A stretch of 36,443 nt of DNA from Actinomycetota bacterium (lineage in GTDB: Bacteria > Actinomycetota > Acidimicrobiia > Acidimicrobiales > Ilumatobacteraceae): positions 1-36,443 of the forward strand of contig JAUSLQ010000266.1 in NCBI GenBank assembly GCA_030645675.1. Reading direction: 5' to 3'. Of the stretch, positions 14,393-32,033 are shown piece by piece. Position 1 is the first letter of the stretch, and every line of letters starts with the position of its first letter. The notes under the pieces are model-generated. The model worked only from the letters and a program-made list of their open reading frames with translations. It was not told the DNA's origin and did no database searches. The position numbers were made by a program, and so were the translations under genes.

Positions 14393-14476
14393 GCCCGGGT
14401 GGCGGAATTGGCAGACGCGGGGGGCTTAAACCCCCCTTCCCGCAAGGGAGTGTGGGTTCGAACCCCACCCCGGGCA
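14393..14476 (+). tRNA. tRNA-Leu(UAA)
   Basis: An 84-nt class II tRNA. The acceptor stem pairs GCCCGGG (14393-14399) with CCCGGGC (14469-14475), then A73. The D arm contains GGAATTGGCAGACGC. The anticodon arm is GGGGG, loop CTTAAAC, CCCCC, giving anticodon UAA. The long variable arm is TCCC-GCAA-GGGA, and the T arm is GTGGG-TTCGAAC-CCCAC. CCA is not encoded (CCCA follows A73). Its 3' part, from anticodon loop to the end, is duplicated at 30891-30944. Confidence 0.95.
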
Positions 14477-14928
14477 CCCATTGTGAGCTGGTGGTATGTG
14501 ACCTCGGCCGGCTGTGGGCGGGTCTCGATCGAGGTTTGGTGTGCACGAAATGTGCACAGAATGTCGAAGGGGCTCTGTCCGGTTTGTTGTGCAGCCCATG
14601 CCCCAGCATTCCGCTCAGCCATCGACAGACGACGACGGCCGTGCGCGGCGACGGCGTTCACGTCTGCCGCTCGCCACGTGCATTCGGCTGATGGTGGGGC
14701 TGTGGTGATGACCCAACGACCGGACACAGGCGGACCAGGGATGGAAGCCCGATCAGACCCGGACGCTGCGGCGAACTCGTGCCGGTGCACGGTCTCGTCC
14801 TGCTCGTGAACATCATCGAAGGCGTGAATCAGCGGATGGCTCGTCTCTCGTCGGCTGATGGCGGTCTCCTACCCGCCGCCTCCCGGCGTCGGATGCGCGA
14901 CCGGGTGTCCGGTGCGCTGGGGGCGGCT
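14477..14928. other. 452-bp gap after tRNA-Leu without a supported gene
   Basis: No reading frame here looks like a protein; frames reaching into the tRNA are antisense artefacts. It holds GTGCAC-GAAAT-GTGCAC at 14541-14557, two copies of a palindromic hexamer, and GTGAGCTGG at 14483-14491, which recurs just beyond the tRNA fragment at 30950-30958. A hairpin lies near its right end. Confidence 0.6.
14895..14917. terminator. Hairpin downstream of the neocarzinostatin-like gene
   Basis: GCGC-(G)-ACCGG at 14895-14904 pairs with CCGGT-GCGC at 14909-14917 around a GTGT loop, with one bulged G. It begins 12 bases past the reverse-strand stop at 14929. There is no U tract, as is common in this GC range. 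Confidence 0.45.
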
Positions 14929-17886: not shown

Positions 17887-18495
17887 TCAGATGCTGTCGG
17901 CGTATGGGGGCGCGGGGTCGTATTGGATGTAGTGCTGTGTGCCTCGCGCATGGTCGGGGGAGTAGATCTGTCCGATGAGCCAGAGGGCCATGTCGATGCC
18001 GGCTGAGACACCTTGGCTGCTCACGACGTTCCCGTCGACGGCCCAACGCTGATCGCGAACAATGGTGCAGCTCCCGCGTGCTTCGAGGGTGTCTTCGAAG
18101 CCCCAGTGGGTGCAGAGGCGTCGGTTGCGGCCGGGGCCGGCTTCGTGGAGCAGTAGTGAACCTGTGCACACGCTGGTGACCCAGTCGCATGAAGCCGCGA
18201 CGTTGCGGAGCCAGTCGATCAGCACTGGATTGCCGACTTCGGTGCGGGTGCCGAAACCACCGGGGGCGAGGACGACATCGAGGTTGGGATGGTTCTCGAA
18301 TGTGTGGTCCGCAAGCACCCGTAAGCCCTTGCTGCATCTCACTGGGCGGTCATGTTCGGAGATCGTGACGATGGTGTCGGCAGCTTCGCCGGTGTTCTCG
18401 CGCAGCATTGATGAGGCGGTGAACACCTCCCAGGGACCGACGAAGTCGAGTTCCTCGACGCCGTCGAACAACAGCAGACCAAAGGTGGTGGGCAT
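17887..18495 (-). CDS. DJ-1/PfpI family protein (isonitrile-hydratase-like)
   Basis: 202 residues. The class I glutamine-amidotransferase-like fold shows LLLFDGVEELDFVGPWEVF at the N-terminus with Glu14 and Asp17, VVLAPGGFGTR at about 74-84, and the nucleophile elbow SVCTGSLLLHEAG with Cys110. CTHWGFEDTLE follows, as in isonitrile hydratase and the amidase-like part of GlxA regulators; no AraC DNA-binding domain is present. It could hydrate isonitriles or act on glyoxals, but the substrate is not shown. It is the last gene of a reverse-strand series and is 126 bp from the PNPOx gene, so it may belong to that operon or have its own promoter. Confidence 0.88.
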   Translation of the reverse strand: MPTTFGLLLFDGVEELDFVGPWEVFTASSMLRENTGEAADTIVTISEHDRPVRCSKGLRVLADHTFENHPNLDVVLAPGGFGTRTEVGNPVLIDWLRNVAASCDWVTSVCTGSLLLHEAGPGRNRRLCTHWGFEDTLEARGSCTIVRDQRWAVDGNVVSSQGVSAGIDMALWLIGQIYSPDHARGTQHYIQYDPAPPYADSI

Positions 18496-18621
18496 GGGCG
18501 TATCGCTTTCAGTAGTGGTTGGGGAGTGCGGGTCCGTGCAGATGTCGGAATGCGGGTCAGTGGAAGGACAGGTCCGGGCGTGAGGTGCGAGGGCGATCGT
18601 GGAACGTCATCGTCGCTCCGT

Positions 18622-19278
18622 TCAGCCGTCGCCGTGGAGCAGGCGTTGGCCGTACTCGTCAACGGTGATCACGTCGTGTTCGGCCTCCGCGAGTCCTTGA
18701 AATCGTGAGGGCAGGAACGGCTGGAGTACATCGATCTTCTTCCACCCCGGCAGAGGTGCATTGCCGTCTGCATCGGGCACGTACTTCGACACTTCGCCGC
18801 GCGTGTGCGGCGTGATGTAGCGGGGGCAGTTGACGAAGACGTCGGTCACGGTGGCTCGGACGACGAGGTCGGCGCCCGGATACTGGCTCATCATCGGATC
18901 GTCACGGCTGACGATGGCGTGGGCGTGTGCGCGGACTCGGTGTGGACGCTCGAAGTCCATGAACAGCAGCCCGATGCGGCCGGCGCCGGCGATGTTGCCC
19001 ATGGAGAGGAACATGCCGTTGCCGTCGTAGCTGGGGAACACGATCGTCGTGCGGTCGATCACACGTACGAACCCAGCGGCACCTCCCTTGTGGGACACGG
19101 TCGGTTGGCCGTCGGCGTTGACGGTGCTGAGGAAGAAGAACGTGCGTGACTCGATGAAGGACTTGGCCTCGTCGTCGATCTCGGGCCGGACGATGACGGC
19201 TGCGAGCACGTCAGCGACTTGGCGGCTGTCGAACTGGTCTTGCAGCTTGCGATGCTGTTCTCCGTAGAAGGTGGTCAT
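18622..19278 (-). CDS. Pyridoxamine-5'-phosphate-oxidase-like flavin protein
   Basis: 218 residues. ATG 19278 has AAGGAG seven bases upstream; the longer frame does not. The split-barrel FMN-binding fold is shown by AKSFIESRTFFFLSTVNADGQPTVSHKGGAAGFV (about residues 38-71) and TIVFPSYDGNGMFLSMGNIAGAGRIGLLFMD (about 78-108), with HRVRAHAHAIV next. The C-terminal stretch contains NCPRYITPH. Members bind FMN, F420 or haem and reduce small substrates or handle peroxides; true pyridoxamine oxidase activity is unlikely given the short form. It follows the FAD oxidoreductase gene by 22 bp and so lies in the same operon. Confidence 0.85.
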   Translation of the reverse strand: MTTFYGEQHRKLQDQFDSRQVADVLAAVIVRPEIDDEAKSFIESRTFFFLSTVNADGQPTVSHKGGAAGFVRVIDRTTIVFPSYDGNGMFLSMGNIAGAGRIGLLFMDFERPHRVRAHAHAIVSRDDPMMSQYPGADLVVRATVTDVFVNCPRYITPHTRGEVSKYVPDADGNAPLPGWKKIDVLQPFLPSRFQGLAEAEHDVITVDEYGQRLLHGDG

Positions 19279-19300
19279 GGTGAGTCTCCTTGGTCGTGGG

Positions 19301-20191
19301 TCATCGATGAAGAGCGGGATGAACGGTCGCGGACCCGATCGAGTGTGCGACGAAGGCCTTGTGGATGGCAATGGCGGCGGCGGAGCCGTCGGCTGCAGCG
19401 AGCACCACTTGATGCGGTGCGGGCGGCGGGCGGCGTACGTCTCCGGCGGCCCACACGAGTGGATTGCTGGTGGCGCCGTTCTCGCTCGTGACGATGTAAC
19501 CGTCTCCGTCGATGTTGCAGCCGAGGGCGCGGGCGACAGCGCTGCGGGGTACGACAGGTGCCTTCACGAACGCAGCCTTCGCCGGGATCATGGTTCCGTT
19601 GCGGAGTTCCACGTGTGACAGCGACTGGCCTTCGCCGATGAGCCCGGCGATGTCGGACGCGGACACGACGGTGACATGCGACGTCCACGAGCGAACCATG
19701 TCCGCGAGGTGGTCGGCGCCGGGGGCGGCGTCGATGACGACGACGGGCTGGTCGCGATGCTCCCATCCGTCGCAGAACGGGCAGTTGAACACCGACTTGC
19801 CCCACCGACGGGCGAGGCCTGCAACCGGTGGCAGTTCGTCGCGAACGCCGGTGGCGAGCACCACGGCGTCACCATGGATCGTGGTGCCGTCGGCCAGGCT
19901 GAGTGACACGTTCGTGTCGGTACTCCGGGCCTCGGTCACCGCGCATCGAACGATCGATACGCCATACGCATGCAGCTCGGCCAGTGCATCGGCTCGGAAG
20001 CGGTTGGGGGCGGTCGCATCCCTCGTGGGGAAGCCGTGGAACTCGTCGACGGTTCCGTTCCGATGCGTCTGGTCGTCGAGCACGGTGACCCGGTGCCGGG
20101 CCCGGGCCAGCACGAGTGCGGCGGTGAGGCCGGCCGCACCGCCGCCGACGACGATCACGTCGCCGGCGACGGCTGCTGAGGTTCCGGTCAT
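19301..20191 (-). CDS. Thioredoxin-reductase-like FAD oxidoreductase with CPFC redox motif
   Basis: 296 residues. The FAD Rossmann motif VIVVGGGAAGLTAALVLARA is at about 12-31, the second FAD motif is WAAGDVRRPPPAPHQVVLAAADG near the C-terminus, and ATGVRDELPPVAG marks the domain hinge. The redox pair is Cys137-Cys140 in NCPFCDGWE. The place of the NADPH-binding GxGxxA holds VVVIDAAPGADH, which is degenerate. This profile resembles the TrxR-like dithiol oxidases (GliT/HlmI type), which form disulfides in small molecules using oxygen. Its ATG overlaps the stop of the exporter gene by four bases, so the two are translationally coupled. Confidence 0.85.
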   Translation of the reverse strand: MTGTSAAVAGDVIVVGGGAAGLTAALVLARARHRVTVLDDQTHRNGTVDEFHGFPTRDATAPNRFRADALAELHAYGVSIVRCAVTEARSTDTNVSLSLADGTTIHGDAVVLATGVRDELPPVAGLARRWGKSVFNCPFCDGWEHRDQPVVVIDAAPGADHLADMVRSWTSHVTVVSASDIAGLIGEGQSLSHVELRNGTMIPAKAAFVKAPVVPRSAVARALGCNIDGDGYIVTSENGATSNPLVWAAGDVRRPPPAPHQVVLAAADGSAAAIAIHKAFVAHSIGSATVHPALHR

Positions 20192-21849
20192 GACGGCGAC
20201 ACCTCCGTCGACGTTGCGGCCTCGACGGTCGCCACGTGCGGCAGTTGATGGCTATGGGCCACGGCGCCGTGGCTGCTGTGACTGCCGTGCCCCCCGTGAG
20301 CGGCGTGGTTCGCCGCCTGGCGGGGGAGCTGGGTGAAGGTCACGGCTGCCGCGCAGAACGCGAGGCCGACGGCGATCCACAGCGAACTGTGCATCGAGTC
20401 CACGAACGCGTCGCGAGCCGCGGTTGCGATCTGGCCGGCCTGGGCACCGAGGTGCTCGCCGGCGTGGATGGCAGCGCCGACGTTGTTCGTCAGCAGGGTG
20501 CGGTCGACGGCGGAGAGCGTCGGGAAGTCGGCCAGCTTGTCCTGCATCGATGTCGCGTAGCTCGTGGCGGCGACACTGCCGATAACGGCGACGCCAAGCG
20601 CACCGCCGAACTCGCGGACGGTGTCGTTGACCGCGGAGCCGACGCCGGCGCGTGCCGGCGGCAGCGTGGCCATGATCATCTCGGTCGCAGCGGGCATCGC
20701 GACACCCGCACCGAGCCCGAACAGCAGCAGCCCGATGCCGGTGGGCGCGTACGAACCACCGTCGACGAACGCAGCCTGGACGGCGACGCCGGCCGTGGCG
20801 ATCAGGGTGCCTGCGGTGACCGCGATGCGCCCACCGTGCAGCTGGGCGAGGTGCGCGCCGGCGCCGGTGCCCAGCAGCATCCCGATCGCTGCCGGCACGA
20901 GCGCGAAGCCGGCCGCGAGCGGGGTGTACTGCAGCACGAACTGCAGGTACTGGGCCTGCAGGAACACGGTGCCGGCCATGGCGAAGAACAGCAGGGCGAG
21001 GGCGATGCTGCCGGCGGAGAAGCTGCGATCGCGGAACAGGGCGATGTCGAGCATCGGGTCATCGCGCCGCATCTCCCAGCCGACGAACACGACCGCGAGC
21101 GCAGCCCCGACCGCGAAGTTGACGACCGATGCGGTCGACGTCCAACCCCGCTCCGGTGCCTGGATGATGGCGTAGACCAGTGTGCTGATCGCCGCAATGG
21201 ACAAGCCGGCGCCGATCGGATCCAGCCGCGTGGCATGCGGGTCGCGCGAGTCGGGCACCAGATGCAGCGCCCCGATGAATGCAGCGACGAGCAGCGGCAC
21301 GTTGATCCAGAAAACCGAGGACCACGAGAAGCTGCGCATCAGCGCGCCGCCCACGATGGGGCCGACGGCGATGCCGGCTCCGCTGGCAGCGGTCCAGCCG
21401 GCGATCGCCTTGGCGCGTTCGCGAGGATCGCCGAACACGTTGACCAGGATCGACAGTGTCGTCGGCATGATCAGCGCGCCGCCGACGCCCATCACACAGC
21501 GGCCGGCGATGAGCGCCGTCGTCGACCCTGCAGTCGCGGCGACGATCGAGCCGCCCAGGAACGTCAGGAGGCCGGCGAGCAGCGCATGGCGGCGGCTGAA
21601 GCGATCACCGAGGCTGCCTGCGGTGAGCAGGAGTCCGGCGAAGACGATGGTGTAGGCGGCGACGATCCACTGCAGCTGTGCCGAGCTGGCGCCGAGATCG
21701 CCGACCAGTTGGGGCATGGCGACGTTGATGATGGTGTGGTCGATGGAGGTGACGAGTAGGGCGAGCACGAGCACGGCGAGGATTCGCCAACGGTTGGGAT
21801 GGCTGGCGTGTGTGTCGCCGATGGATTGGGTGGTGGGACGGCCGTGCAT
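20188..21849 (-). CDS. DHA2-family MFS drug exporter with His-rich tail
   Basis: 553 residues from ATG 21849, which has AAGGAG five bases upstream. It begins with a short polar tail, then about 14 membrane helices. LVTSIDHTIINVAMPQL is the family D1 motif, LLLTAGSLGDRFSRRHALL is motif A, and WTAASGAGIAVGPIVGGAL is motif C of antiporters. This is the EmrB/QacA type that exports drugs in exchange for protons. The last 35 residues include HAAHGGHGSHSSHG and HSHQLPH, ten or so His that may bind metal in the cytoplasm. A C/A-rich, unstructured 56-nt linker separates it from the hydrolase gene upstream. It is the second gene of the left operon. Confidence 0.93.
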   Translation of the reverse strand: MHGRPTTQSIGDTHASHPNRWRILAVLVLALLVTSIDHTIINVAMPQLVGDLGASSAQLQWIVAAYTIVFAGLLLTAGSLGDRFSRRHALLAGLLTFLGGSIVAATAGSTTALIAGRCVMGVGGALIMPTTLSILVNVFGDPRERAKAIAGWTAASGAGIAVGPIVGGALMRSFSWSSVFWINVPLLVAAFIGALHLVPDSRDPHATRLDPIGAGLSIAAISTLVYAIIQAPERGWTSTASVVNFAVGAALAVVFVGWEMRRDDPMLDIALFRDRSFSAGSIALALLFFAMAGTVFLQAQYLQFVLQYTPLAAGFALVPAAIGMLLGTGAGAHLAQLHGGRIAVTAGTLIATAGVAVQAAFVDGGSYAPTGIGLLLFGLGAGVAMPAATEMIMATLPPARAGVGSAVNDTVREFGGALGVAVIGSVAATSYATSMQDKLADFPTLSAVDRTLLTNNVGAAIHAGEHLGAQAGQIATAARDAFVDSMHSSLWIAVGLAFCAAAVTFTQLPRQAANHAAHGGHGSHSSHGAVAHSHQLPHVATVEAATSTEVSPS

Positions 21850-21905
21850 GATGACTCCTTGGGTGTGATGTGTGGGTTGTGGTGGGTTGGTGTGTGATGG
21901 GCGGG

Positions 21906-22859
21906 CTAGGGGAGCAGGCGGGTGATCTCGTCGATCACGACACCCGGTTGGTCGATCTCGATGTGGTGGCTGGTGTGCTCGACCGACACCAGGTGTGAGG
22001 TGGTGGACAGCGCCATCCAGTCCTCTTGGCCCAGGTTCCACGCCTCGTTGAGGCGGTCGACTTCTGCTGCAGCCAGGTCGGCTGGAAGCCCGCGGCGGGC
22101 GGCAGTGATGACGGCCATCGGCAGTGAGCCGAGCGAGACGATCTGGGCCGCTTCGGCGAAGGCGGCAACGGCGTCGAGGCGCTCGCTGTTGCCGGTCGGT
22201 GCGAACATGCCGCACAGGCCCCCGAGCATCGCTGCGGCGTCGGACCCGTCGTTGGGGATCGCGCAGATGGCGGCCGGCCATGTGGTGGGGGAGGCGTCGA
22301 TGAGCACGAGCCCGGTGACCTCGTCTGCGTACAGCGACGCGAACGTGACCGCCTCGGCGCCACCGAAGGAGTGGCCGACGACCACGTAGGGCCCGGGCTC
22401 ACCGACCCTGCCCAGCAGGTCGTGCAGGTCCATCGCCTGAGTCGTGAAGGTGCCGGTCGAGGTCGCCGGGTCGCTCGTCCCCGTTCCGGGTCGGTCGTAC
22501 GAGCACACGCGGGCGCGGGCAGCGATGGCCGGCTCGACCAGCGCCCAGCCGGTGCTGTCGCCGCCGAAACCGGCGATGAGCACCACCGTCGTGTCGCCCC
22601 CGCCCACGCAGCGCACATGCACCCGCTCACCGGCAGCGCCGACCAACTCGTCGATGGTGCCGGTCGGCCGCGGCGCAGTGGTCGCGGTCACGATGGACGG
22701 CACGGCGGGGGTGCTCGGCGTCGTGGTGTGCGACGTGCTGGTGGAAGCGGTCGAGGTCGGGAGTGAGCCGGCCCGGGACGTCGTGTCGTTCCCACAGGCC
22801 GTGGCGGCGACCAGGGCCACGAGGACGAAGACGCCAAGGTGGCGAGGGGCCGGACGCAT
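21906..22859 (-). CDS. Alpha/beta hydrolase lipoprotein
   Basis: 317 residues from ATG 22859, which has GGAG seven bases upstream and gives a classic lipoprotein signal (LVALVAATAC, Cys22). An ATG at 22904 lies 11 bases from the conserved 46-bp element and could be a leaderless start. After a Ser/Thr/Pro linker the fold shows VVLIAGFGGDSTGW, CSYDRPGTGTSD, the nucleophile elbow GHSFGGAEA, and His in SHHIEIDQP near the end. It would act outside the membrane as an esterase-like enzyme. It is the first gene of the left operon and diverges from the LAL regulator. It resembles the membrane hydrolase of the right operon. Confidence 0.88.
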   Translation of the reverse strand: MRPAPRHLGVFVLVALVAATACGNDTTSRAGSLPTSTASTSTSHTTTPSTPAVPSIVTATTAPRPTGTIDELVGAAGERVHVRCVGGGDTTVVLIAGFGGDSTGWALVEPAIAARARVCSYDRPGTGTSDPATSTGTFTTQAMDLHDLLGRVGEPGPYVVVGHSFGGAEAVTFASLYADEVTGLVLIDASPTTWPAAICAIPNDGSDAAAMLGGLCGMFAPTGNSERLDAVAAFAEAAQIVSLGSLPMAVITAARRGLPADLAAAEVDRLNEAWNLGQEDWMALSTTSHLVSVEHTSHHIEIDQPGVVIDEITRLLP

Positions 22860-22915
22860 GGCGCCGCTCCAGAGGTTGGCGATCGTGTCGAAGATGTTGT
22901 TCATGGGCAACACGA

Positions 22916-22961
22916 TCGACCTAAGGGGTCGCGCGCCGCATCGGACACACCCCCTCAGATC
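22916..22961 (-). promoter_or_regulatory. Conserved 46-bp element, left copy
   Basis: Read on the reverse strand: GATCTGAGGGGG, 5 nt, CCGATGCGGC, 9 nt, CTTAGGTCGA. All 32 block bases and both spacer lengths are identical to the copy at 25914-25959. It ends 11 bases before ATG 22904. It is best explained as a shared promoter and operator, probably for the adjacent LAL regulator. The blocks can also be read as a ribosome site plus a six-codon leader (MRRATP) ending at the TAG. Confidence 0.75.
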
Positions 22962-22979
22962 TGTTCCCGGCGACCAGGT

Positions 22980-22993
22980 CGCGTGAACACGCG
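22980..22993. promoter_or_regulatory. Perfect palindrome CGCGTG-AA-CACGCG before the LAL gene
   Basis: It lies 15 bases before ATG 23009 and abuts GATACT, a candidate -10. CTGAGGGG follows at 22997-23004, a word shared with both 46-bp elements but here equally readable as a ribosome site. Candidate autoregulatory site. Confidence 0.4.
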
Positions 22994-23008
22994 ATACTGA
23001 GGGGCACT

Positions 23009-25900
23009 ATGCACGCCCGTCCGTCCGCCCCCGACTTCGTGGGCCGGCACGCGGAGTTGGCCGTCTTTGAAAGGGCCATCGCAGATGCACGCAATGGCCT
23101 GCCCTCGGTCGTGTTGGTGAGTGGCGACGCGGGGATTGGCAAGACCACCATCGTCAGCGAAAGCGCAGCCCGAGGTGGTGTGGCCCTGCACCTGGGGCGG
23201 TCCACCCACATCGGTGGTGAGATCATCCCATTGGCGCCGTTGGCGGATCTGCTTCGCCAGCTCCGCCGGTCGCGACCGGACCTGCTGTCCGAGACCCCGG
23301 CGCTCACCGCGTTGCGCGACTGGTTCGCGCCCCGCTCGGGCTCCTCGGCGCTTGACGGAGCGTCGCACGGAGGGCTGTTCGTCGCCGTCCTCGAGTTGTT
23401 CAGCCACCTCGCGGCTGATGCGGCGGTTGTGGTGGGGTTCGAGGATCTGCACTGGGCCGACACGGTGACGTGGGATCTGTTCGACTATCTGGCCCGCAAC
23501 CTCATCGATGAGCGGGTCGTCCTCGTCGGCACCTTCCGGGCCAACGAGGTCGCCTCTCGGCCGGCGCAGCGAGGCCGGTTGGCCGAACTCGCCAGGCTGC
23601 CGGCGGCACGTCGCCTGCACCTCGAAGGGTTGGAGCGCGACGAAATCGCCGAGCGTGTCTCGAAGCTGCTCGGTACGCCGGCGCCGAGCGCGCTCGTCGA
23701 CCAGGTCGTAGCGCGGGGCCGCGGCAATCCTTTCTTCACCGGTGAGCTCGTGGCCGCACACCTGTCGGGGGACGCCATCCCGCTCGTGCTGTCCGACCTG
23801 ATCTCCGCCGAGATCGCCGACCTCGACAACCGGGCCCGCCTCGTGTTGGGTGCAGTCGCAGCGATCGGGCGCGAAACCCCCCACGATCTGCTCGTCGCGA
23901 TCGTCGGCCTGGCGGAGCAGGAAGTGGAAGCGGCGTTACGGTCGGTCATCGATGCACGGTTGCTCGTGGTCAACAACGACGCCTACCGGTTTCGGCACCC
24001 GCTGCTCGGCGAGGTCGTCTACGCCGATCTCCTCCCGCCACAGCGGGCCCGCCTTCACCGCAGCATCGCGGCCGCGCTCGCGCAACAGCCAACCGATGCG
24101 CTGCGACGAGCGGATCGGGCCGGTGAGCTCGCACTTCACCTCGATCTCGCGGGCGACATCGAGGGGGCTTTCACCGCGTTGCTCGCCGCCGCCGACGCGG
24201 CCGAGACCATCGCCCCAGCGGCGGCGTTCAGCCATCTCGAACGTGCCTTCGAGTTGTGGGATGCGGCCGGAGCGAGCGCAGGCGCAGCCAATCGAGGACA
24301 CCGCCTGTGGCAGGCGGCCGACATCGCAACCTCCATCGTCGGCAACGAACGGGCCGTGCAGTTGGCGCGTGCTGCGTTCGAACACGGGCCGCCTCCGCTC
24401 GGTGTCGCGTGGGGCCATGAGCGGCTCGGGCGCTACCTGTGGGCCACCGGCAGACAGCAGGAGAGCAGCGCCGAGTTCGCCAAAGCGGTCGCACGGTTGA
24501 ACGACGACGGTGGCACTGCCGCAGCCGCGGTCTATGCCGGGCTCGGGCAGGCCGAGCTGATGGCCGGCAACTACGCTACCGCCGAGCGATGGTGCGCTCA
24601 GGTCTTCGACGTCGTCAAGGTGCCCGTCGACGATCCGTTGGCGTGGGGCATGGCGCGTCGTGTCTTGGGCATCGTGCGCGGCAATCAGGGCGATCCGGCA
24701 GCGGGTGTGGTGCTCTGTCGCGAATCGGCTGCGGCGGCCTACAGCGCTCTCGGTCGTACGTTCGCCAATGTCTACCTGTGCGTCGCGCTCGGTGATGCGG
24801 GCCACTATCAGGCGTTGCTCGATACAGCGCTCGACGCGGTCGCGGATGGGCAGCTCAGCGGAACCGATCGCGGTTTCGGCTGCTACTTGGATTCGCTTGC
24901 CGCCGAGGCTCTTGTTCGCCTGGGTCGGTGGACCGAAGTCGCCGGCGTCCTGGCACGCCAGCCCATTGCCGACACTCTTCCTGTCGGTCTCCTGCGACTG
25001 GCGCGGGTGAACGCGTTGCTCGCCGCCCGATGTGGCGAGACCGAGCGCGCCCTTGCCGAGCTCGCCATCATCGACGCGCTGCCGCTCGACGGATGGCACG
25101 TGACCATTCGAGACGCCACGACAGCCGAGGTCCACCTCGCGCTCGGCAACTGGGCCGAGGCCGCACAGGCGGCCGAGCGCGGTTGGGCCGCAACGGGTGC
25201 CACATCGGTGTTGTGGGCAGCCAGGTTCGCGATGTTCGCAACGGTTGCCGAAGTGGAGCAGAGGCTCGACCAGCGGGCGCGGCGTGAGCCCGTCGATGTC
25301 GACGCCGTGATCGCTCGTACGCAGCAGCGGCTCGATGCCGTTCGCTCGTTTGCGAACGGTGTGCCGGGCGGTCCCCAACGCGACACGGCAGCACACCTCG
25401 CACAGGCAGGCGCCAGCTTGACGCGCCTCACCGTGTCCGACGCGCCGGCATGGGCCGATGCCGTGGCCCGCTGGAGTGAGCTCGGTGATCGTTGGGCGAG
25501 CGCGGTGGCCCTGGTACGCGAAGCCGAGGCGGCGGCGCTGGCCGGTGCGGCGGATCGGGCGGCGTCATCGCTGCGACAGGGTCACGCGATCGCTGCTGAG
25601 CTCGGCGCCGGCCCGCTGTTGGCGGAGATCGATGCTGTGTCCAGCCGCACGCGGATCAGCATCGACGCCCCGACCCGCATCGCGCTCGACGAGACCTCCG
25701 CCGAGCGGCTCGGCCTGACGCCCCGCGAAGCGGAAGTGCTGGTACTGGTGGCCGCAGGCCGCACCAACCGCCAGATCGGCGACGAGCTGTACGTGTCGGA
25801 CAAGACGGCCAGCGTGCACGTGTCGAACATCCTGCGCAAGCTCGGCGTCAACAGCAGGGTCGACGCTGCCGCCGTCGCCCAGCGCCTCGGCATCAGCTGA
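23009..25900 (+). CDS. LAL-type LuxR family regulator (AAA ATPase plus LuxR helix-turn-helix)
   Basis: 963 residues, the usual size for large ATP-binding LuxR regulators. FVGRHAEL at residues 10-17 opens the AAA domain, Walker A is GDAGIGKTT (39-47), and Walker B is [12 protein letters not shown]. Alpha-helical repeats rich in Ala and Glu fill about 350-880 and probably sense the inducer. The C-terminal helix-turn-helix (899-963) has [18 protein letters not shown] and [19 protein letters not shown]. MalT is the model: ATP plus inducer lets it oligomerise and activate. It sits between two outward operons whose upstream regions share a 46-bp element, so it is the likely activator of both. Confidence 0.94.
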
Positions 25901-25913
25901 GCGGAGCCATCTC

Positions 25914-25959
25914 GATCTGAGGGGGAGCGCCCGATGCGGCACGGGCTGCCTTAGGTCGA
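25914..25959 (+). promoter_or_regulatory. Conserved 46-bp element, right copy
   Basis: GATCTGAGGGGG, 5 nt, CCGATGCGGC, 9 nt, CTTAGGTCGA on the plus strand, ending ten bases before ATG 25970. With the left copy it forms inverted repeats around the LAL gene. It lies 13 bases past the LAL stop. As a leader reading it would give MRHGLP. Confidence 0.75.
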
Positions 25960-25969
25960 CGATGCCCTC

Positions 25970-27058
25970 ATGCCCTCGCCGATCGACCCGACGAACCCAC
26001 GCTCGATACACGAGGATCTCGCCGTTCGCGGCGCGGTCCCGCTCGGGTTGTCCGGCCGTCTGGTGGGGATCGGCCGCGACGGCTTCGTCCACTCGCTGCA
26101 TTTCGACAGAGGCGGGGTCTCCTACCTCGCTCGCAACATCGGCGTGGGCGTGGGCGTCGAATGTCTGGTCACTTTCGACGGCACGATCCTTGCGTATGGC
26201 GACGATTCCTCGGTCCGCCAGCTGAGCCTCGATGCCGGCACGCTGCGTCGGGTCGATCTCGCCGGTCGCGGTCGCACGGTCGCCGCGTGTCCCCAGCTCG
26301 ATCCGGCCACCGGTGAGCTGCACTTCATCGCTCGCGACTGGGCCGGCGCGCAGCTGCACCACGTGGTGCCGGCCGGCGCCCTCACTCGGCGTAACCGGCT
26401 CATCGTCGAGGCGGGGGCGCGGATCCAGGGCCTGGCGGTCGGCCGTGATCACGTGGTCTTCGTCGCCGACGGTGTGGCTGGTGTTGCGCCCCGCGGCGGC
26501 GAGGTGCGCACCACGTGGATGCCGACCGATGTCGCCGCCCCGAGGCCCGTGCACACTCACCGCGCCGGCGACACCATCGTCCTGCTGGCACTCACGCCGT
26601 CGCTCGAGCGATGGATCCTGCACCCCGACCGGCGCATCGTGGAGCGCGAGGTGCTCGACCCGACGCCCCGGCGGTTCGCTCACCTCTGCGCCGGTGGCGT
26701 CAACGGCGCGCCGCGCCGGGTGTGGACAACGGGCGACGAGACGATCGGCAGTCACGATCTCGTCGGTTCCCGCCATTCGCACCACAGCCTCTTGCCGAGG
26801 CAGCCAGGCGACTTCGTCGTCGTTCCCGACGCGGCGCGACCCGACGACATCGACAGCGGCTGGTTCGTCGGGCTCGTCCACGACCCGTCGACCTCGACCA
26901 CCGACCTGCGCGTGAGCGACGCGACCGACATCGCTGAGGCCATCGCCACGCTCCGCCTCCCCCGACCAATCCCTCGCGGGCTCCGCTGCACCTGGGTGCC
27001 GGCGACCCCCGCCATGACGACACACCAATCACCATCACCAAGAACGGACGGATCATGA
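25970..27058 (+). CDS. Carotenoid-oxygenase-fold protein lacking most iron ligands
   Basis: 362 residues, shorter than the usual 450-500. Family landmarks are clear: LVGIGRDGFVHSLHF (31-45), GGVSYLARNI, DPATGELHF, LAVGRDHVVF, PDDIDSGWFVGLVHDP, DLRVSDATD and LPRPIPRGLRCTWVP. The four His that hold iron in this seven-blade propeller fall at Cys107 (CPQLDP for HPxxD), Gln153 (RIQGLAVG), His195 (PVHTH, kept) and Arg339 (GLRC for GFHG). With one of four left, normal iron chemistry is unlikely; a binding or regulatory role, or another reaction, is inferred. ATG 25970 follows the 46-bp element; its stop overlaps the next start by four bases. Confidence 0.75.
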   Translation: MPSPIDPTNPRSIHEDLAVRGAVPLGLSGRLVGIGRDGFVHSLHFDRGGVSYLARNIGVGVGVECLVTFDGTILAYGDDSSVRQLSLDAGTLRRVDLAGRGRTVAACPQLDPATGELHFIARDWAGAQLHHVVPAGALTRRNRLIVEAGARIQGLAVGRDHVVFVADGVAGVAPRGGEVRTTWMPTDVAAPRPVHTHRAGDTIVLLALTPSLERWILHPDRRIVEREVLDPTPRRFAHLCAGGVNGAPRRVWTTGDETIGSHDLVGSRHSHHSLLPRQPGDFVVVPDAARPDDIDSGWFVGLVHDPSTSTTDLRVSDATDIAEAIATLRLPRPIPRGLRCTWVPATPAMTTHQSPSPRTDGS

Positions 27059-28452
27059 ACACCATCCAGCACACCCAACCAGCCCCGGACGCTGTCATTG
27101 CCGACGCCACGCCGACCACCGCGCCCGATGAACCCCGGCGGGAACCCATCTGGCGCGTCGTCGGCGGATCGGTGGCAGCCGGCTTCATCGGAGCGCTCGT
27201 GCTCACGCTCGGCGTCTTCGGTGGCGCACAGGAGCACGTCATCTCCGGCTCGGCGCTGCTCGCCTTCGCGTTCGGCTGGGCCATGCTCGCCGCACTGTCG
27301 GCCCGCTTCACCAGCCAACCGCAGCGCTGGGCGCGGGTGCCCGCCGTCGGCATGGCGGCTTCCGGGTTGACCGTGCTGATCGCACAGCCCACCGATCACG
27401 CGCTCACCACGGCTGGATGGGTGTGGCCCCCGGTGGCGTTCGCGCTCACCGTGTGGACGGCCGTTCAGATCCGCCGCAACCTTGCAGGCCGCGTTCGGTG
27501 GCTGCTCTACCCGATCGTCGCCTCGCTCGCTGTCGGCTCCGTCGGTGGGATGTACGAAAGTGCCGTCACGGCCCGCGACGAGCACACCTATGCCGCTCCG
27601 GGCACCCTCTACGACGTCGGAGGTCGTCGACTGCACCTGGACTGCACCGGGACGGGCAGTCCCACCGTCGTGCTCGAGAACGGGCTCGGATCGACGTCGC
27701 CGAACTGGGCTCGAGTCACTGCTGGCGTGGGTCCCACGACACGTGTCTGCGCCTATGACAGGGCAGGTCAGGGTTGGAGCGACGACATCGGTGCACCGCA
27801 AGACGCTGTGGCCATCGCTGCCGATCTGCACACCCTGCTCGACCGTGCGGGCGAATCCGGCCCATACGTGCTCGTCGGTCACTCCGCGGGCGGCCCGTAC
27901 GTGATGACGTTCGCCTCCCGTTACCCGGACGAGGTCGCTGGCATGGTGCTGCTCGACTCGATGAGCCCGTACGAGTTCACCGATCTTCCGGGCTTCGCCA
28001 GCGAGCAGTCGATGATGCGCCGAGGCCTGGGCGTGCTCCCCAGCCTCGCCCGGCTGGGCGCCACTCAGGTGCTGCCCACGTCGGTCTGGTCGGACCTCCC
28101 CGAGCCGGCGGCATCTCAAGTGCAGGCGTTCGCGTCCAGCCCGCGCGGCATGCGCAACATGCGCGACGAGCAATCGATGTACCCCACGGTGTTCGAACAG
28201 GCCAAGGCGTTGACGTCGCTCGACGGCAAACCGCTCGTCGTCGTCACCGCAACCGAGTCGATTGATCAGCACAAGGAGTGGACCGACCTGCAGGACCGCC
28301 TCGCAGCAATGTCGACGAACAGTCTGCACCGAGTCGCCGACGCGACGCACCAGGGCCTGATCGAGGATGCAGAGAGCTACCAGGCCTCCGTCGAGGCCAT
28401 CCTGGATGTCGTCCAGTCGGTCCGGACCCAGCAACCCGTCACCGTCAGGTGA
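27055..28452 (+). CDS. Membrane-anchored alpha/beta hydrolase
   Basis: 465 residues from ATG 27055, overlapping the previous stop in ATGA. A polar tail is followed by four hydrophobic helices within about residues 33-175. The hydrolase domain begins near residue 185 (LYDVGGRRLHLDCTGTG) and contains VVLENGLGSTSPNW, CAYDRAGQGWSD, the nucleophile elbow GHSAGGPYVM and His in DATHQGLIED. The acid is probably in VVVTATESID. The domain follows the fourth helix, so its side of the membrane depends on the topology; outside is more likely. It is related to the left-operon lipoprotein hydrolase, suggesting both handle similar ester-like compounds. Confidence 0.88.
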   Translation: MNTIQHTQPAPDAVIADATPTTAPDEPRREPIWRVVGGSVAAGFIGALVLTLGVFGGAQEHVISGSALLAFAFGWAMLAALSARFTSQPQRWARVPAVGMAASGLTVLIAQPTDHALTTAGWVWPPVAFALTVWTAVQIRRNLAGRVRWLLYPIVASLAVGSVGGMYESAVTARDEHTYAAPGTLYDVGGRRLHLDCTGTGSPTVVLENGLGSTSPNWARVTAGVGPTTRVCAYDRAGQGWSDDIGAPQDAVAIAADLHTLLDRAGESGPYVLVGHSAGGPYVMTFASRYPDEVAGMVLLDSMSPYEFTDLPGFASEQSMMRRGLGVLPSLARLGATQVLPTSVWSDLPEPAASQVQAFASSPRGMRNMRDEQSMYPTVFEQAKALTSLDGKPLVVVTATESIDQHKEWTDLQDRLAAMSTNSLHRVADATHQGLIEDAESYQASVEAILDVVQSVRTQQPVTVR

Positions 28453-28489
28453 CGAGCGCTCGCATCGCCCAACCACCGAAAGGAACAAA

Positions 28490-29500
28490 ATGAACACCAC
28501 GCCACACACAACGCCGCCGGCACGCACGATGCGGGCCATCGTGCAAGACCGCTACGGAACCGGCGAGACCTGGCAACTGACCGACATCGACCAACCCGAG
28601 ATCGAACCGCATGAGGTGCTCGTTCACGTGCACGCCGCCGGCCTCGACCGCGGCACCTGGCACAACATGACCGGCCGCCCCTACCTGATGCGCCTCATGG
28701 GTTTCGGTCTCCGCGCACCGAAGAGCCGGGTGCCCGGACTCGCCGTCGCGGGGACCGTCGTCGCCATCGGTGCGAACGTCACCCGGTTCAGCGTCGGCGA
28801 TGAGGTGTTCGGCGTCAGCCGAGGAGCCTTCGCCGAGTACGCCGCTGCCCGAGAGGACAAGCTTGCTCCCAAGCCGCCGTCCCTCACCTTCGAACAGGCT
28901 GCCGCCGTTCCGATCTCCGCGACCACCGCCCTCCAGGGGCTGCGGCTCGGCCGGATCGAAGCCGGACAGCAGGTCCTGATCCTCGGCGCATCCGGGGGTG
29001 TCGGCAGCTACGCCGTGCAGCTGGCGAAGTCGTTCGGCGCCGAGGTCACCGGCGTGTGCAGCGCGGCCAAGGCCGATCTCGTGCGGTCACTGGGCGCCGA
29101 CCACACGATCGACTATGCCACCGACGACGCCACTGACGGATCCCGCCGCTACGACCTGATCCTCGACATCGCCGGCAACACTCCACTTCGCCGCCTGCGA
29201 CGCGCCCTCAACCCGAAGGGCAGTCTCGTCATCGTCGGCGGCGAGAGCAAAGGCAACATCACGGGCGGCTTCGGCAGAAGTCTGCGGGCGCCGCTGGTAT
29301 CGCTCATCGTGAGCCAGCGGCTGGCCATGCTCGCCTCCAAGGAGCACTACGCCGACCTGGTGCCACTGACCGAACTCATCGAGGCCGGCAAGCTCACGCC
29401 GAGCATCGACGCGACGTACCCGCTCGACGAGGCGCCGGACGCCATGCGCCAACTCGAAGCGGGCACGGTCCGCGGCAAGGTCTGCATCTCGGTGCAGTAG
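28490..29500 (+). CDS. NAD(P)-dependent quinone-oxidoreductase-like MDR enzyme
   Basis: 336 residues. ATG 28490 has AAGGA five bases upstream and lies 37 bp after the hydrolase stop. The medium-chain dehydrogenase fold shows MRAIVQDRYGTGETW, EIEPHEVLVHVHAAGLDRGTWH, GLAVAGTVVAIGANVTRFSVGDEVFG and the nucleotide-binding ILGASGGVGSYAVQLAKSFGAEVTGVCS. The structural-zinc Cys cluster and catalytic Cys are absent, so it is the zinc-free quinone reductase type. It reduces quinones or activated double bonds with NAD(P)H in the cytoplasm. Its frame and spacing place it as the third gene of the right operon. Confidence 0.92.
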   Translation: MNTTPHTTPPARTMRAIVQDRYGTGETWQLTDIDQPEIEPHEVLVHVHAAGLDRGTWHNMTGRPYLMRLMGFGLRAPKSRVPGLAVAGTVVAIGANVTRFSVGDEVFGVSRGAFAEYAAAREDKLAPKPPSLTFEQAAAVPISATTALQGLRLGRIEAGQQVLILGASGGVGSYAVQLAKSFGAEVTGVCSAAKADLVRSLGADHTIDYATDDATDGSRRYDLILDIAGNTPLRRLRRALNPKGSLVIVGGESKGNITGGFGRSLRAPLVSLIVSQRLAMLASKEHYADLVPLTELIEAGKLTPSIDATYPLDEAPDAMRQLEAGTVRGKVCISVQ

Positions 29501-29682: not shown

Positions 29683-30579
29683 ATGCCAAGGGCACTTCTT
29701 CAGGGCGGCACCGCCCTCGAGTACGAGACGTTCGGCGAGCCGACCGATCCGGCCATCCTGCTGATCGCCGGGTTCGGCGCTCAGATGCTCTCCTGGGACA
29801 GCGGCTTCTGCGAGGGCCTTGCCCGACGGGGCCGATTCGTGGTCCGTTTCGACAACCGAGACACGGGCTTGTCGACCAAGTTCGAGCAACACCCGGTCGA
29901 CCTGCACGACCTGATCGGAGCGGCGTCCATCGGCGATCTCGAGACGGTCCGATCACTTGCTCCCTACCGCCTCGCGGACCTCGCCGATGACGGCGCGGGC
30001 CTCGCCCGCGCGCTCGGCCTCGACCAGGTCCACGTGGTCGGGGCATCGATGGGCGGCATGGTCGCCCAGCTCGTCGCGATCCGTCACCCGGAGCTCGTGA
30101 CCACGTTGACCTCGATGATGTCGTCGACCGGCTCTCCTGACGTTGGGCAGTCGACCCCTGAGGCGTTCGCCGCGCTCATGAAGCCGATGGCGCCCGACCG
30201 CGAGGGCTACGCCGCCGACTCCGTTGCGAGCTCTCGTGTGTGGGCCTCGAAGCGCTACTTCGACGAGAGCGCTGCGTCCGCTCTCGCAGCCGCGAGCTAC
30301 GACCGGGGCCTCTGCCCTTCAGGAACGACCCGCCAGCTCGCGGCCGTGCTCGCGACTGGGTCGGTGGAGAGCGACCTCGCACGGCTACGGCTCCCGGTGC
30401 TGGTGATCCACGGCACCGACGACACGCTCATCACCCCAAGCGGCGGACAACGAACCGCCGAGGTGATCCCCGGTGCCGAACTCATGATCGTCACAGACAT
30501 GGGCCACGACCGACCCGAGCCGCTCTGGCCGATCCTTTGGGACGCGATCGAGACTCACACGGCCCGGGTTCGGGACTGA
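29683..30579 (+). CDS. Alpha/beta hydrolase (methylesterase-like)
   Basis: 298 residues; AAAGGA lies five bases before ATG 29683. Motifs in order: ILLIAGFGAQMLSWD (oxyanion), VVRFDNRDTGLSTKF, the nucleophile elbow GASMGGMVAQL, acid in VIHGTDDTLI and His in TDMGHDRP. FDNRDTGLS is typical of the RdmC/aclacinomycin methylesterase and related polyketide esterase group. It is probably cytoplasmic. A 182-bp gap from the MDR gene, with its own promoter signals, argues that it is a separate unit, although it shares the theme of the right operon. Confidence 0.9.
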   Translation: MPRALLQGGTALEYETFGEPTDPAILLIAGFGAQMLSWDSGFCEGLARRGRFVVRFDNRDTGLSTKFEQHPVDLHDLIGAASIGDLETVRSLAPYRLADLADDGAGLARALGLDQVHVVGASMGGMVAQLVAIRHPELVTTLTSMMSSTGSPDVGQSTPEAFAALMKPMAPDREGYAADSVASSRVWASKRYFDESAASALAAASYDRGLCPSGTTRQLAAVLATGSVESDLARLRLPVLVIHGTDDTLITPSGGQRTAEVIPGAELMIVTDMGHDRPEPLWPILWDAIETHTARVRD

Positions 30580-31088: not shown

Positions 31089-32033
31089 TCAATCGAAGCG
31101 CTGAGGGTCGTTGGCGGCTGAGGCGATACCGAACCCGAACCTGACGGCACCGCTGGACCACACCGGGCAGGGGCTCACATACGCGATCGGGCAGAAGTGC
31201 ACGCCGTCACCTCGAACCACGGTGGTCCCGTCAGGCGCACAGTCGGTGTCGAACTCGGCACACGGCAGACGGTCGGTGTACTGACCGTCGGGCGTTTCCA
31301 CGAACTGGCCGGCATCCACATAGGACACGTGCGGCATGGCCGCATACTCCCGGTACACCGCGTTGATACCGTCAACTTCGAGCTCGGCCTCGAAGCTGGG
31401 ATGATGCAGCGGCTGACCGACCAGCACGACCCAAGCACCAGCAGCCCTGGCATGGTCGATCAACACACCGACATCAGCGCGGTACTTCTCGACCAGCGGC
31501 TGATCGATCAAACGCGCGCCCGCGCTGTCGAGCATGCACGGCGTCATGTTGTTGCCGGTGAATGTGATCACCACCACCGTGGTCGCCGTCGCCTCCAGGT
31601 CGTCGTCGAGCCAGTCACACGGGGCGGTGCCACCGAAGAACTTCCTCACGAACGTCTTCCCCGGCGTCGCATACCGGATGATGGGTTCTGTCGCCTCGGC
31701 AAGCGAGTCGCCGATGACGACCAACCGGTCGAAGACAACCGGGGGCTCCTCGCGCAGTCGCCGGGCGGGTTCAGACGCGTTCACGATTGCCAGCGCCCGG
31801 GCAGCGCTCACGGCGGGTTCGACCACCGTGCCGAATCGAGCAGTAACCTCGACGACGGTCATGCTCGGGAGATCGGCGTCGATCGGCCGTGGTGCTTCGG
31901 CGATGACGGCCGGTAGCGCCGTCTCGACCGACCCATCACCGGCCGCTTGGGTGACGCCGATCAACCCGGCGACGAGAGCGGAGGCGACCCCGACGACGAT
32001 TCCCGTCCTGACTGGAACTCTCTTGCTGTGCAT
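31089..32033 (-). CDS. Secreted SGNH-hydrolase-like protein
   Basis: 314 residues; GGAGG lies six bases before ATG 32033. A signal peptide covers about residues 1-31. SGNH blocks: VVIGDSLAEATEP (Ser110), the Gly block in FFGGTAPCDWL, the Asn block in TFTGNNMTPC, and DGVHFCP near the end with the catalytic Asp and His. Cys pairs suggest disulfides outside the cell. The domain resembles the soluble SGNH half of OafA/AT3 acyltransferases, so it may move or remove acetyl groups from cell-surface sugars. It diverges from the lipoprotein gene with a 158-bp gap that holds the direct-repeat element. Confidence 0.82.
   Translation of the reverse strand: MHSKRVPVRTGIVVGVASALVAGLIGVTQAAGDGSVETALPAVIAEAPRPIDADLPSMTVVEVTARFGTVVEPAVSAARALAIVNASEPARRLREEPPVVFDRLVVIGDSLAEATEPIIRYATPGKTFVRKFFGGTAPCDWLDDDLEATATTVVVITFTGNNMTPCMLDSAGARLIDQPLVEKYRADVGVLIDHARAAGAWVVLVGQPLHHPSFEAELEVDGINAVYREYAAMPHVSYVDAGQFVETPDGQYTDRLPCAEFDTDCAPDGTTVVRGDGVHFCPIAYVSPCPVWSSGAVRFGFGIASAANDPQRFD

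Follow-up and report, generated by a model that had tools for sequence, protein, structure and literature searches.

Two outward-facing promoter-like elements flank a LAL regulator gene in a member of the Ilumatobacteraceae

The LAL locus and its two elements

A stretch of 36,443 nucleotides from an Actinomycetota bacterium of the Ilumatobacteraceae (assembly GCA_030645675.1, contig JAUSLQ010000266.1, positions 1 to 36,443; hereafter the window) contains a gene for a LAL (large ATP-binding, LuxR family) regulator at 23009..25900 on the plus strand, and one copy of a short DNA element is found at each end of this gene. The encoded protein has 963 amino acids, with an AAA_16 ATPase domain at the N-terminus (Pfam PF13191, E = 3.7e-19, residues 10-172) and a GerE/LuxR helix-turn-helix domain at the C-terminus (PF00196, E = 2.3e-18, residues 903-957). 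It has both domains that define the LAL regulators, and it was classed as a member of this family, which is described as poorly studied (PMC3282765).

The original prediction had been that a pair of 46-bp elements surrounds the LAL gene and faces outward. This was confirmed by a repeat search, in which the longest inverted repeat between positions 22000 and 27000 was formed by 22916-22961 and 25914-25959 (46 nt, 83% complementary). Three blocks match between the two copies at 32 of 32 positions, and the spacers between them have lengths of 5 and 9 in both. The pair was thus real, but the predicted length was too short: an alignment with relatives revealed that the conserved unit of about 50 bp runs four bases further, to column 50, and ends in a -10 box. 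The left element (50 bp, columns 1-50) occupies 22912..22961 on the minus strand, with column c = 22962 - c. Its block 1, GATCTGAGG, lies at 22953..22961, block 2, CCGATGCG, at 22937..22944 and block 3, CCTTAG, at 22921..22926; if column 57 is taken as +1, they would cover -56 to -48, -39 to -32 and -21 to -16, respectively. Block 2 would then overlap the -35 region, and it holds the start of a mini open reading frame (mini-ORF). The -10 box of the left element is GATCGT (type NANNNT, 22912..22917, minus strand), and transcription is predicted to start at about 22904. The right element (50 bp, 25914..25963, plus strand, column c = 25913 + c) contains GATCTGAGG at 25914..25922, CCGATGCG at 25931..25938, CCTTAG at 25949..25954 and the -10 box GACGAT at 25958..25963; its predicted transcription start, 25970, is the A of an ATG. 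Within the original three blocks no -35/-10 pair with a sensible spacing could be discerned by eye, and a -10 box became clear only past column 46.

The genome was searched with the gapped pattern of the three blocks, allowing up to three mismatches. Exactly two matches were obtained in the assembly (4,092,240 bases, 79.95% complete), compared to none in the same assembly with the reversed pattern, and therefore the element pair is not due to chance. In a 395-genome sample of the class, the gapped pattern matched this genome alone.

The element copies head two rows of genes that lead away from the LAL gene. The first gene of the left row encodes an alpha/beta hydrolase (21906..22904, minus strand, PF00561) and is predicted to be leaderless from the ATG at 22904. 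It is followed by genes for an MFS transporter, an FAD oxidoreductase, a PNPOx-like protein and a DJ-1/PfpI protein (17887..22281, minus strand); the MFS frame was taken as listed and is open beyond its likely start. The right row begins with a predicted leaderless gene for an RPE65/carotenoid oxygenase-like protein (25970..27058, plus strand, PF03055, C-terminal match) and continues with an alpha/beta hydrolase and a zinc alcohol dehydrogenase (27055..29500, plus strand), while a further hydrolase gene at 29683-30579 may also belong to it. RPE65 relatives are present in three loci of other genomes (L004, L151, L153). No RPE65 relative was detected below 1e-8 in L003, a locus of genome G432, and the gene downstream of the right element is unconfirmed there.

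Conservation of the element and its occurrence beside LAL genes

LAL orthologs matching at about 77% are encoded on two public contigs of metagenome-assembled genomes (MAGs), L003 (G432:C73) and L004 (G514:C52), and orthologs of 74-81% are present in G452, G456, G432, G514 and G506. Contigs were judged at whichever LAL end or ends they reach. The element was found at both LAL ends in G514, G432, G452 and G456, the left copy of G456 being broken at the -10 box, and at the left end only in G506. In L003, L153 and L004 the LAL frame is split across reading frames (tblastn pieces), owing to assembly errors or decay.

A sequence-only model of the element, R1, was used to search 221 genomes of the family. 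At least 45 of the 46 columns were matched at E < 1e-5 in exactly six genomes, own genome included, at 13 places. The same six genomes have the LAL gene, namely the own genome and the five with orthologs of 74-81%, as judged by a LAL search that covered 150 of the 221 genomes. A motif search of the genome and of relatives had been named as a check in the original prediction; there are only two copies in the genome, and family matches over at least 45 columns at E < 1e-5 are confined to LAL-bearing genomes. R1 also hit 31 further family genomes at E values from 8.4e-4 to 0.05; most of these matches are partial, and they were discarded as no better than chance.

Two of the 13 places lie on contigs other than that of the LAL gene. 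On G452:C23 a left-type copy precedes PNPOx and DJ-1 genes, which are relatives of the genes that close the left row in the window, and on G506:C296 a right-type copy precedes an alcohol dehydrogenase gene that is 79% identical to the one of the window's right row. The element thus stands before relocated pieces of the gene set in both genomes. In the former locus (L149), which corresponds to window positions 17887-19371, the left-type element and start codon share 66 identical bases with the leader of the L003 hydrolase gene; this leader has apparently been swapped between genes.

A search of 397 genomes with R1 led, via the element, to a genome from another family of the order (G613). It encodes a 47% LAL and has four element copies within 8 kb. 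One precedes a DJ-1 gene (Pfam) just after the LAL gene, a second, on the other side of the LAL gene, precedes an MFS-like gene (by eye) and an alcohol dehydrogenase gene, a third is placed ahead of a copper-chaperone-like gene (by eye), and the fourth lies further out. The copy at L159:7935-7984 is followed by copper-chaperone-like and copper-ATPase-like genes (by eye). A genome of a third family, G036, has a 49% LAL, the only further one of at least 47% in the LAL search of the 395-genome class sample, and a single element copy before a DJ-1 gene. Altogether, the element occurs in all eight genomes in which a LAL of 47% or more was seen; seven of them were found by a LAL search that was independent of the element. 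A partial match in G345 (columns 2-26, E = 6.2e-4) was attributed to chance, as it lacks a third block in the expected position and the genome has no LAL at E 1e-20.

Alignment of 18 elements from 11 genomes (A6), in which the near-duplicate copies of G514 and G452_C23 as well as G456_L with its broken -10 box were left out, revealed the invariant letters T5, G9, C18, GATG at 20-23, G25, CTTA at 37-40, A46 and T50. The core C-N-GATG-N-G / CTTA / A-NNN-T is thus kept in 18/18 elements. Box 1, ATCTGAGG, is identical in all 14 elements of a second alignment (A5) and has diverged in the four rows of the 18-element alignment that come from family f40 and the Pseudonocardiales. The base after CTTA, usually G, is C in 3/18 elements. 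In two later model matches, box 2 deviates (CCAATG in L209, CCGATT in L207). The original prediction of drifting spacers was correct insofar as the spacers differ between left and right; it did not hold within the two types, since the first spacer is nearly constant among the left copies of relatives and likewise among most of the right copies.

Among the 16 full-length copies, 15 have GANNNT at columns 45-50, and in 12 an ATG or GTG begins at column 57/58, that is, 7-8 bases past the -10 box. The left copies that retain the hydrolase gene (G000, G432, G452, G506) have an ATG at column 58, and the right copies of G000, G432, G452 and G456 a start codon at column 57. Three G613 copies have an A at column 57, followed further downstream by an ATG with a Shine-Dalgarno sequence, and in G036 the column-57 ATG is in frame with the DJ-1 gene, with a Shine-Dalgarno-led ATG 15 codons further on. 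The sole broken copy is that of G456_L, where homology stops at the -10 box and the downstream gene is gone; this element (L153:118-163) is intact to about column 44, and close to the end of the contig both the -10 box and the left gene are absent. A TANNNT motif about 12 bp before the start codon has been reported as the mark of leaderless genes, which make up more than 20% of the genes of Actinobacteria (PMC3160421). In both window copies a NANNNT box lies about 12 bases ahead of the start codon, and genes with a start codon 7-8 bases past the -10 box are probably leaderless, judged by this geometry. The -10 box together with a predicted leaderless start also explains why 10-11 bases separate the 46-bp elements from the ATG codons at 22904 and 25970, a distance that had been noted correctly in the original prediction.

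The core (columns 18-50) is not confined to the LALs described so far. It was also found about 280-320 bp upstream of 31-37% LALs in f40 genomes and in one Pseudonocardiales MAG, where it precedes a small gene with its own Shine-Dalgarno sequence. In f40 this small gene was seen between element and LAL gene in L211, L212, L213, L204, L205, L206, L208, L209 and L210, with the reservation that in L210 element and small gene remain and no LAL gene lies beside them; one product was compared with Pfam and had no match. A model built from the 18 elements, R3, was run on 33 chosen genomes, and 17 of them matched at E <= 0.02, including 7/13 in f40. The 11 controls among them (nine without a LAL at the search thresholds and two with 34-35% LALs) yielded one match, which was partial (G038, E = 0.003). 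Nine of the 12 untrained places were inspected, the remaining three being weaker. At five of the nine a LAL homolog is encoded a few hundred bp further down the same strand (G170, twice in G111, G142, G020); all five are in f40, where seven places were inspected. The G203 site keeps the small gene. At the G131 site (L207:6043-6090) GATT replaces GATG, an ATG is at the leaderless position, no LAL gene is present in the fetched stretch, and the short frame that follows looks, by eye, like the C-terminal portion of an AMP-binding enzyme.

Additional copies of ATCTRAG accumulate near the diverged cores. Eight occurrences were counted within 120 bp upstream of 11 such cores, at distances of 15, 35, 37, 37, 38, 68, 68 and 88 from the core, compared to about 0.06 expected from the local density (12 in 256,664 strand positions of ten f40 stretches, a count that includes seven of the eight). 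Box 1 itself, in its normal position, accounts for one of the eight. Because L208 and L210 are near-copies of each other, one site enters the count twice, and a reverse-orientation copy in L208 was left uncounted. Where one locus has several ATCTRAG motifs (L206, L208), they are 20, 20 and 31 bp apart, which is close to two or three helical turns and thus fits a DNA-binding protein on one face of the helix.

A tree of 28 full-length LALs showed that the element-linked rows require 2 changes, compared to 8.4 for shuffled labels (0/500 as low); the element-linked LALs may have a single origin. The 28 rows were drawn from 71 loci after removal of one duplicate and of split or short frames, which include the element-bearing L003, L153, L205, L209 and L036.

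A probable promoter-operator and alternative explanations

Conservation of the element, its co-occurrence with LAL genes, the extra copies before operon genes and the -10 box argue, at the level of sequence, that each element is a regulated promoter fused to an operator of the LAL regulator encoded between them, and we assign a probability of roughly 80% to this explanation. A promoter and operator of a two-sided LAL regulon had also been the favored explanation of the original prediction, which is thus supported. We infer that the LAL protein binds the element and that it activates rather than represses, and likewise the start sites and the signal. ATCTGAGG would lie at about -55 to -48, C-N-GATG-N-G at about -39 to -32, CTTA at about -20 to -17 and GANNNT at -12 to -7, and a MalT-type activator on box 2 would sit over the -35 region. 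A signal, perhaps a substrate of the oxidoreductases or hydrolases, and ATP would be bound by the LAL protein; the loaded protein would assemble on boxes 1 and 2, possibly also on box 3, and would recruit RNA polymerase to both gene rows. In this organism the transcription start would coincide with the start codon, giving leaderless mRNAs.

Several observations do not fit easily with this explanation. For a simple activator, it is uncommon to find a conserved CTTA between the -35 and -10 regions. The spacing also varies: boxes 1 and 2 are closer together by one base in the four f40 and Pseudonocardiales rows of the 18-element alignment, and so are boxes 2 and 3 in L208 and L210. The likeness of left and right copies could partly stem from the duplication of one leader. 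No element copy in the window points into the LAL gene itself. Leaderless use is not general, because the f40 and Pseudonocardiales sites, except L207, precede genes with Shine-Dalgarno sequences. At 4/9 of the untrained R3 places (L207, L210, L214, L215; genomes G131, G203, G038, G096) no LAL gene was found in the fetched stretch, and L214 and L215 also lack CTTA. Furthermore, many LALs come without the element: only 2 of 77 loci with LALs of about 28-41% matched at E < 0.01 (L036, and weakly L077), the 34-35% LALs of G398 and G366 had no element at E 0.02, and none was found at one LAL of G142 (L175) or at the second and third LALs of G613 and G036 (L161, L162, L170, L171). As most LAL homologs of 28-41% lack the element, only some LALs are associated with it. 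Among L005-L081, the Streptosporangiaceae loci yielded no convincing element, the best being a partial match in L005 (E = 0.39). The weak core-like site of L077 (positions 4740-4780, E = 0.004) precedes a start codon and is about 250 bp upstream of a LAL gene from Paractinoplanes.

As an alternative, the element might be the promoter of an alternative sigma factor, with the LAL gene as one member of that regulon. The near-fixed spacing down to the -10 box and the conserved CTTA in the spacer would suit such a promoter, as would the arrangement in f40, where the LAL gene sits downstream of the element, via the small gene. However, the -10 box belongs to the common NANNNT type, all eight genomes discussed above have the element together with the LAL gene, and the extra ATCTRAG boxes at variable upstream distances resemble activator sites. 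In addition, no sigma factor was present among the Pfam-scanned neighbors, although no systematic search was aimed at one. A sigma factor promoter is therefore regarded as unlikely.

The original prediction had also considered that the elements are leader-peptide genes with a GAGGGGG ribosome-binding site and the frame ATG CGG NNN NNN NNN CCT TAG, which would act by attenuation or coupled re-initiation. This frame from ATG over CCT to TAG is indeed kept in 15/16 full-length elements. In contrast, the stop codon is not conserved in the larger alignment, where TAC replaces TAG in 3/18 elements (G613_L, G020 and the Pseudonocardiales), residues 3-5 vary freely, the G run is lost in 3/4 G613 copies, and each of three G613 targets is served by a separate Shine-Dalgarno sequence located further downstream. 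With a transcription start at column 57/58, the mini-ORF would span -36 to -16 and thus lie upstream of the transcript. Leader peptides are hence very improbable.

Equally improbable is a structured RNA, i.e., a hairpin with the stem GAUCUGAGG/CCUUAGGUC in a 5' leader. The two left copies fold well (z -4.4 and -5.2) and 92.9% of the cells are paired, but the two right copies fold less well (z -2.2 and -0.8), and 0/9 pairs are changed on both sides, so that compensatory changes are missing. Apart from its first base the 5' arm never varies, whereas four positions of the opposite arm have drifted, and the window scan gave no Rfam match for the element at the gathering score.

Inversion of the central segment between the repeats, a further proposal of the original prediction to which the inverted orientation around the LAL gene would lend itself, is the least credible explanation. 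Genes keep their order and orientation in the window and in the two relatives in which one stretch covers both sides (L003, L151), isolated extra copies occur elsewhere, G036 has one copy only, and the repeats are only 83% complementary.

Within the favored explanation of a promoter fused to a LAL operator, a more specific version is tentatively put forward. The LALs with a three-box promoter could form a subfamily whose members touch the DNA on either side of the -35 region, the CTTA box included, and act by MerR-like remodelling instead of MalT-like recruitment, in some lineages on leaderless mRNAs; this is a possibility that we consider well short of probable.

Comparison with known systems and further observations

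The closest parallels come from MalT, also of the LuxR family. According to PMC7567727, the motif TCATCC-5-GGATGA of the MalT-like regulator of Actinoplanes sp. SE50/110 ends 34.4 bases before the transcription start, and the MalT box of E. coli is GGGGA(T/G)GAGG. As in Actinoplanes, a MalT-like regulator would be encoded within the gene region that it controls, with several targets and one motif, and a GATG motif would cover the -35 region: C-N-GATG ends at -34 in 18/18 elements, if column 57 is the transcription start. In contrast to Actinoplanes, C-N-GATG-N-G is joined to ATCTGAGG upstream and to CTTA between the -35 and -10 regions; the transcription start had been mapped there and is predicted here. 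A full MalT box of either form was not recognized in the consensus by eye, which has no TCATCC half at that spacing. The element is not classed as a MalT box but, by analogy, as a new variant of operator that would function in the manner of a MalT-type site.

A second parallel is TpdR of Rhodococcus jostii TMP1, a LAL activator of the catabolic operon tpdABC with repeats at and upstream of the -35 region (PMC6099782). Its proposed site differs, being a 15-nt direct repeat, TnnAAnnGCGGAnTC, and its transcription starts lie 45 and 52 nt before the start codon, so that it is not leaderless. Actinobacterial leaderless promoters share with the element a -10 box that begins about 12 bases before the start codon; they differ in that the box begins with T there and with G here, and in the three further conserved boxes of the element (PMC3160421). 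A search of the open-access literature retrieved no description of the ATCTGAGG box or of this binding-site layout. Control by promoters that flank the regulator gene looks like a known kind of regulation, while the layout of the predicted binding site is apparently new.

One subset of LALs would thus come with a promoter that can be recognized from sequence alone and that offers an operator for experimental tests. The element spans three families. DJ-1 genes occur in the gene sets of all three, alcohol dehydrogenase genes in two and MFS genes in two (one by eye), and a fourth family yielded additional LAL genes when it was searched with the element model. The locus also exemplifies how a conserved promoter before a leaderless gene can mimic a leader-peptide gene.

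A candidate -10 box of the LAL gene itself, GATACT, is found at 22993..22998 on the plus strand, and GATACT is present in L003, too. Further out, a DUF459/GDSL-like hydrolase is encoded at 31089-32033, close to the right end of the window, and a tRNA-Leu (taa) gene at 14393-14478 is the sole Rfam match in the window at the gathering score.

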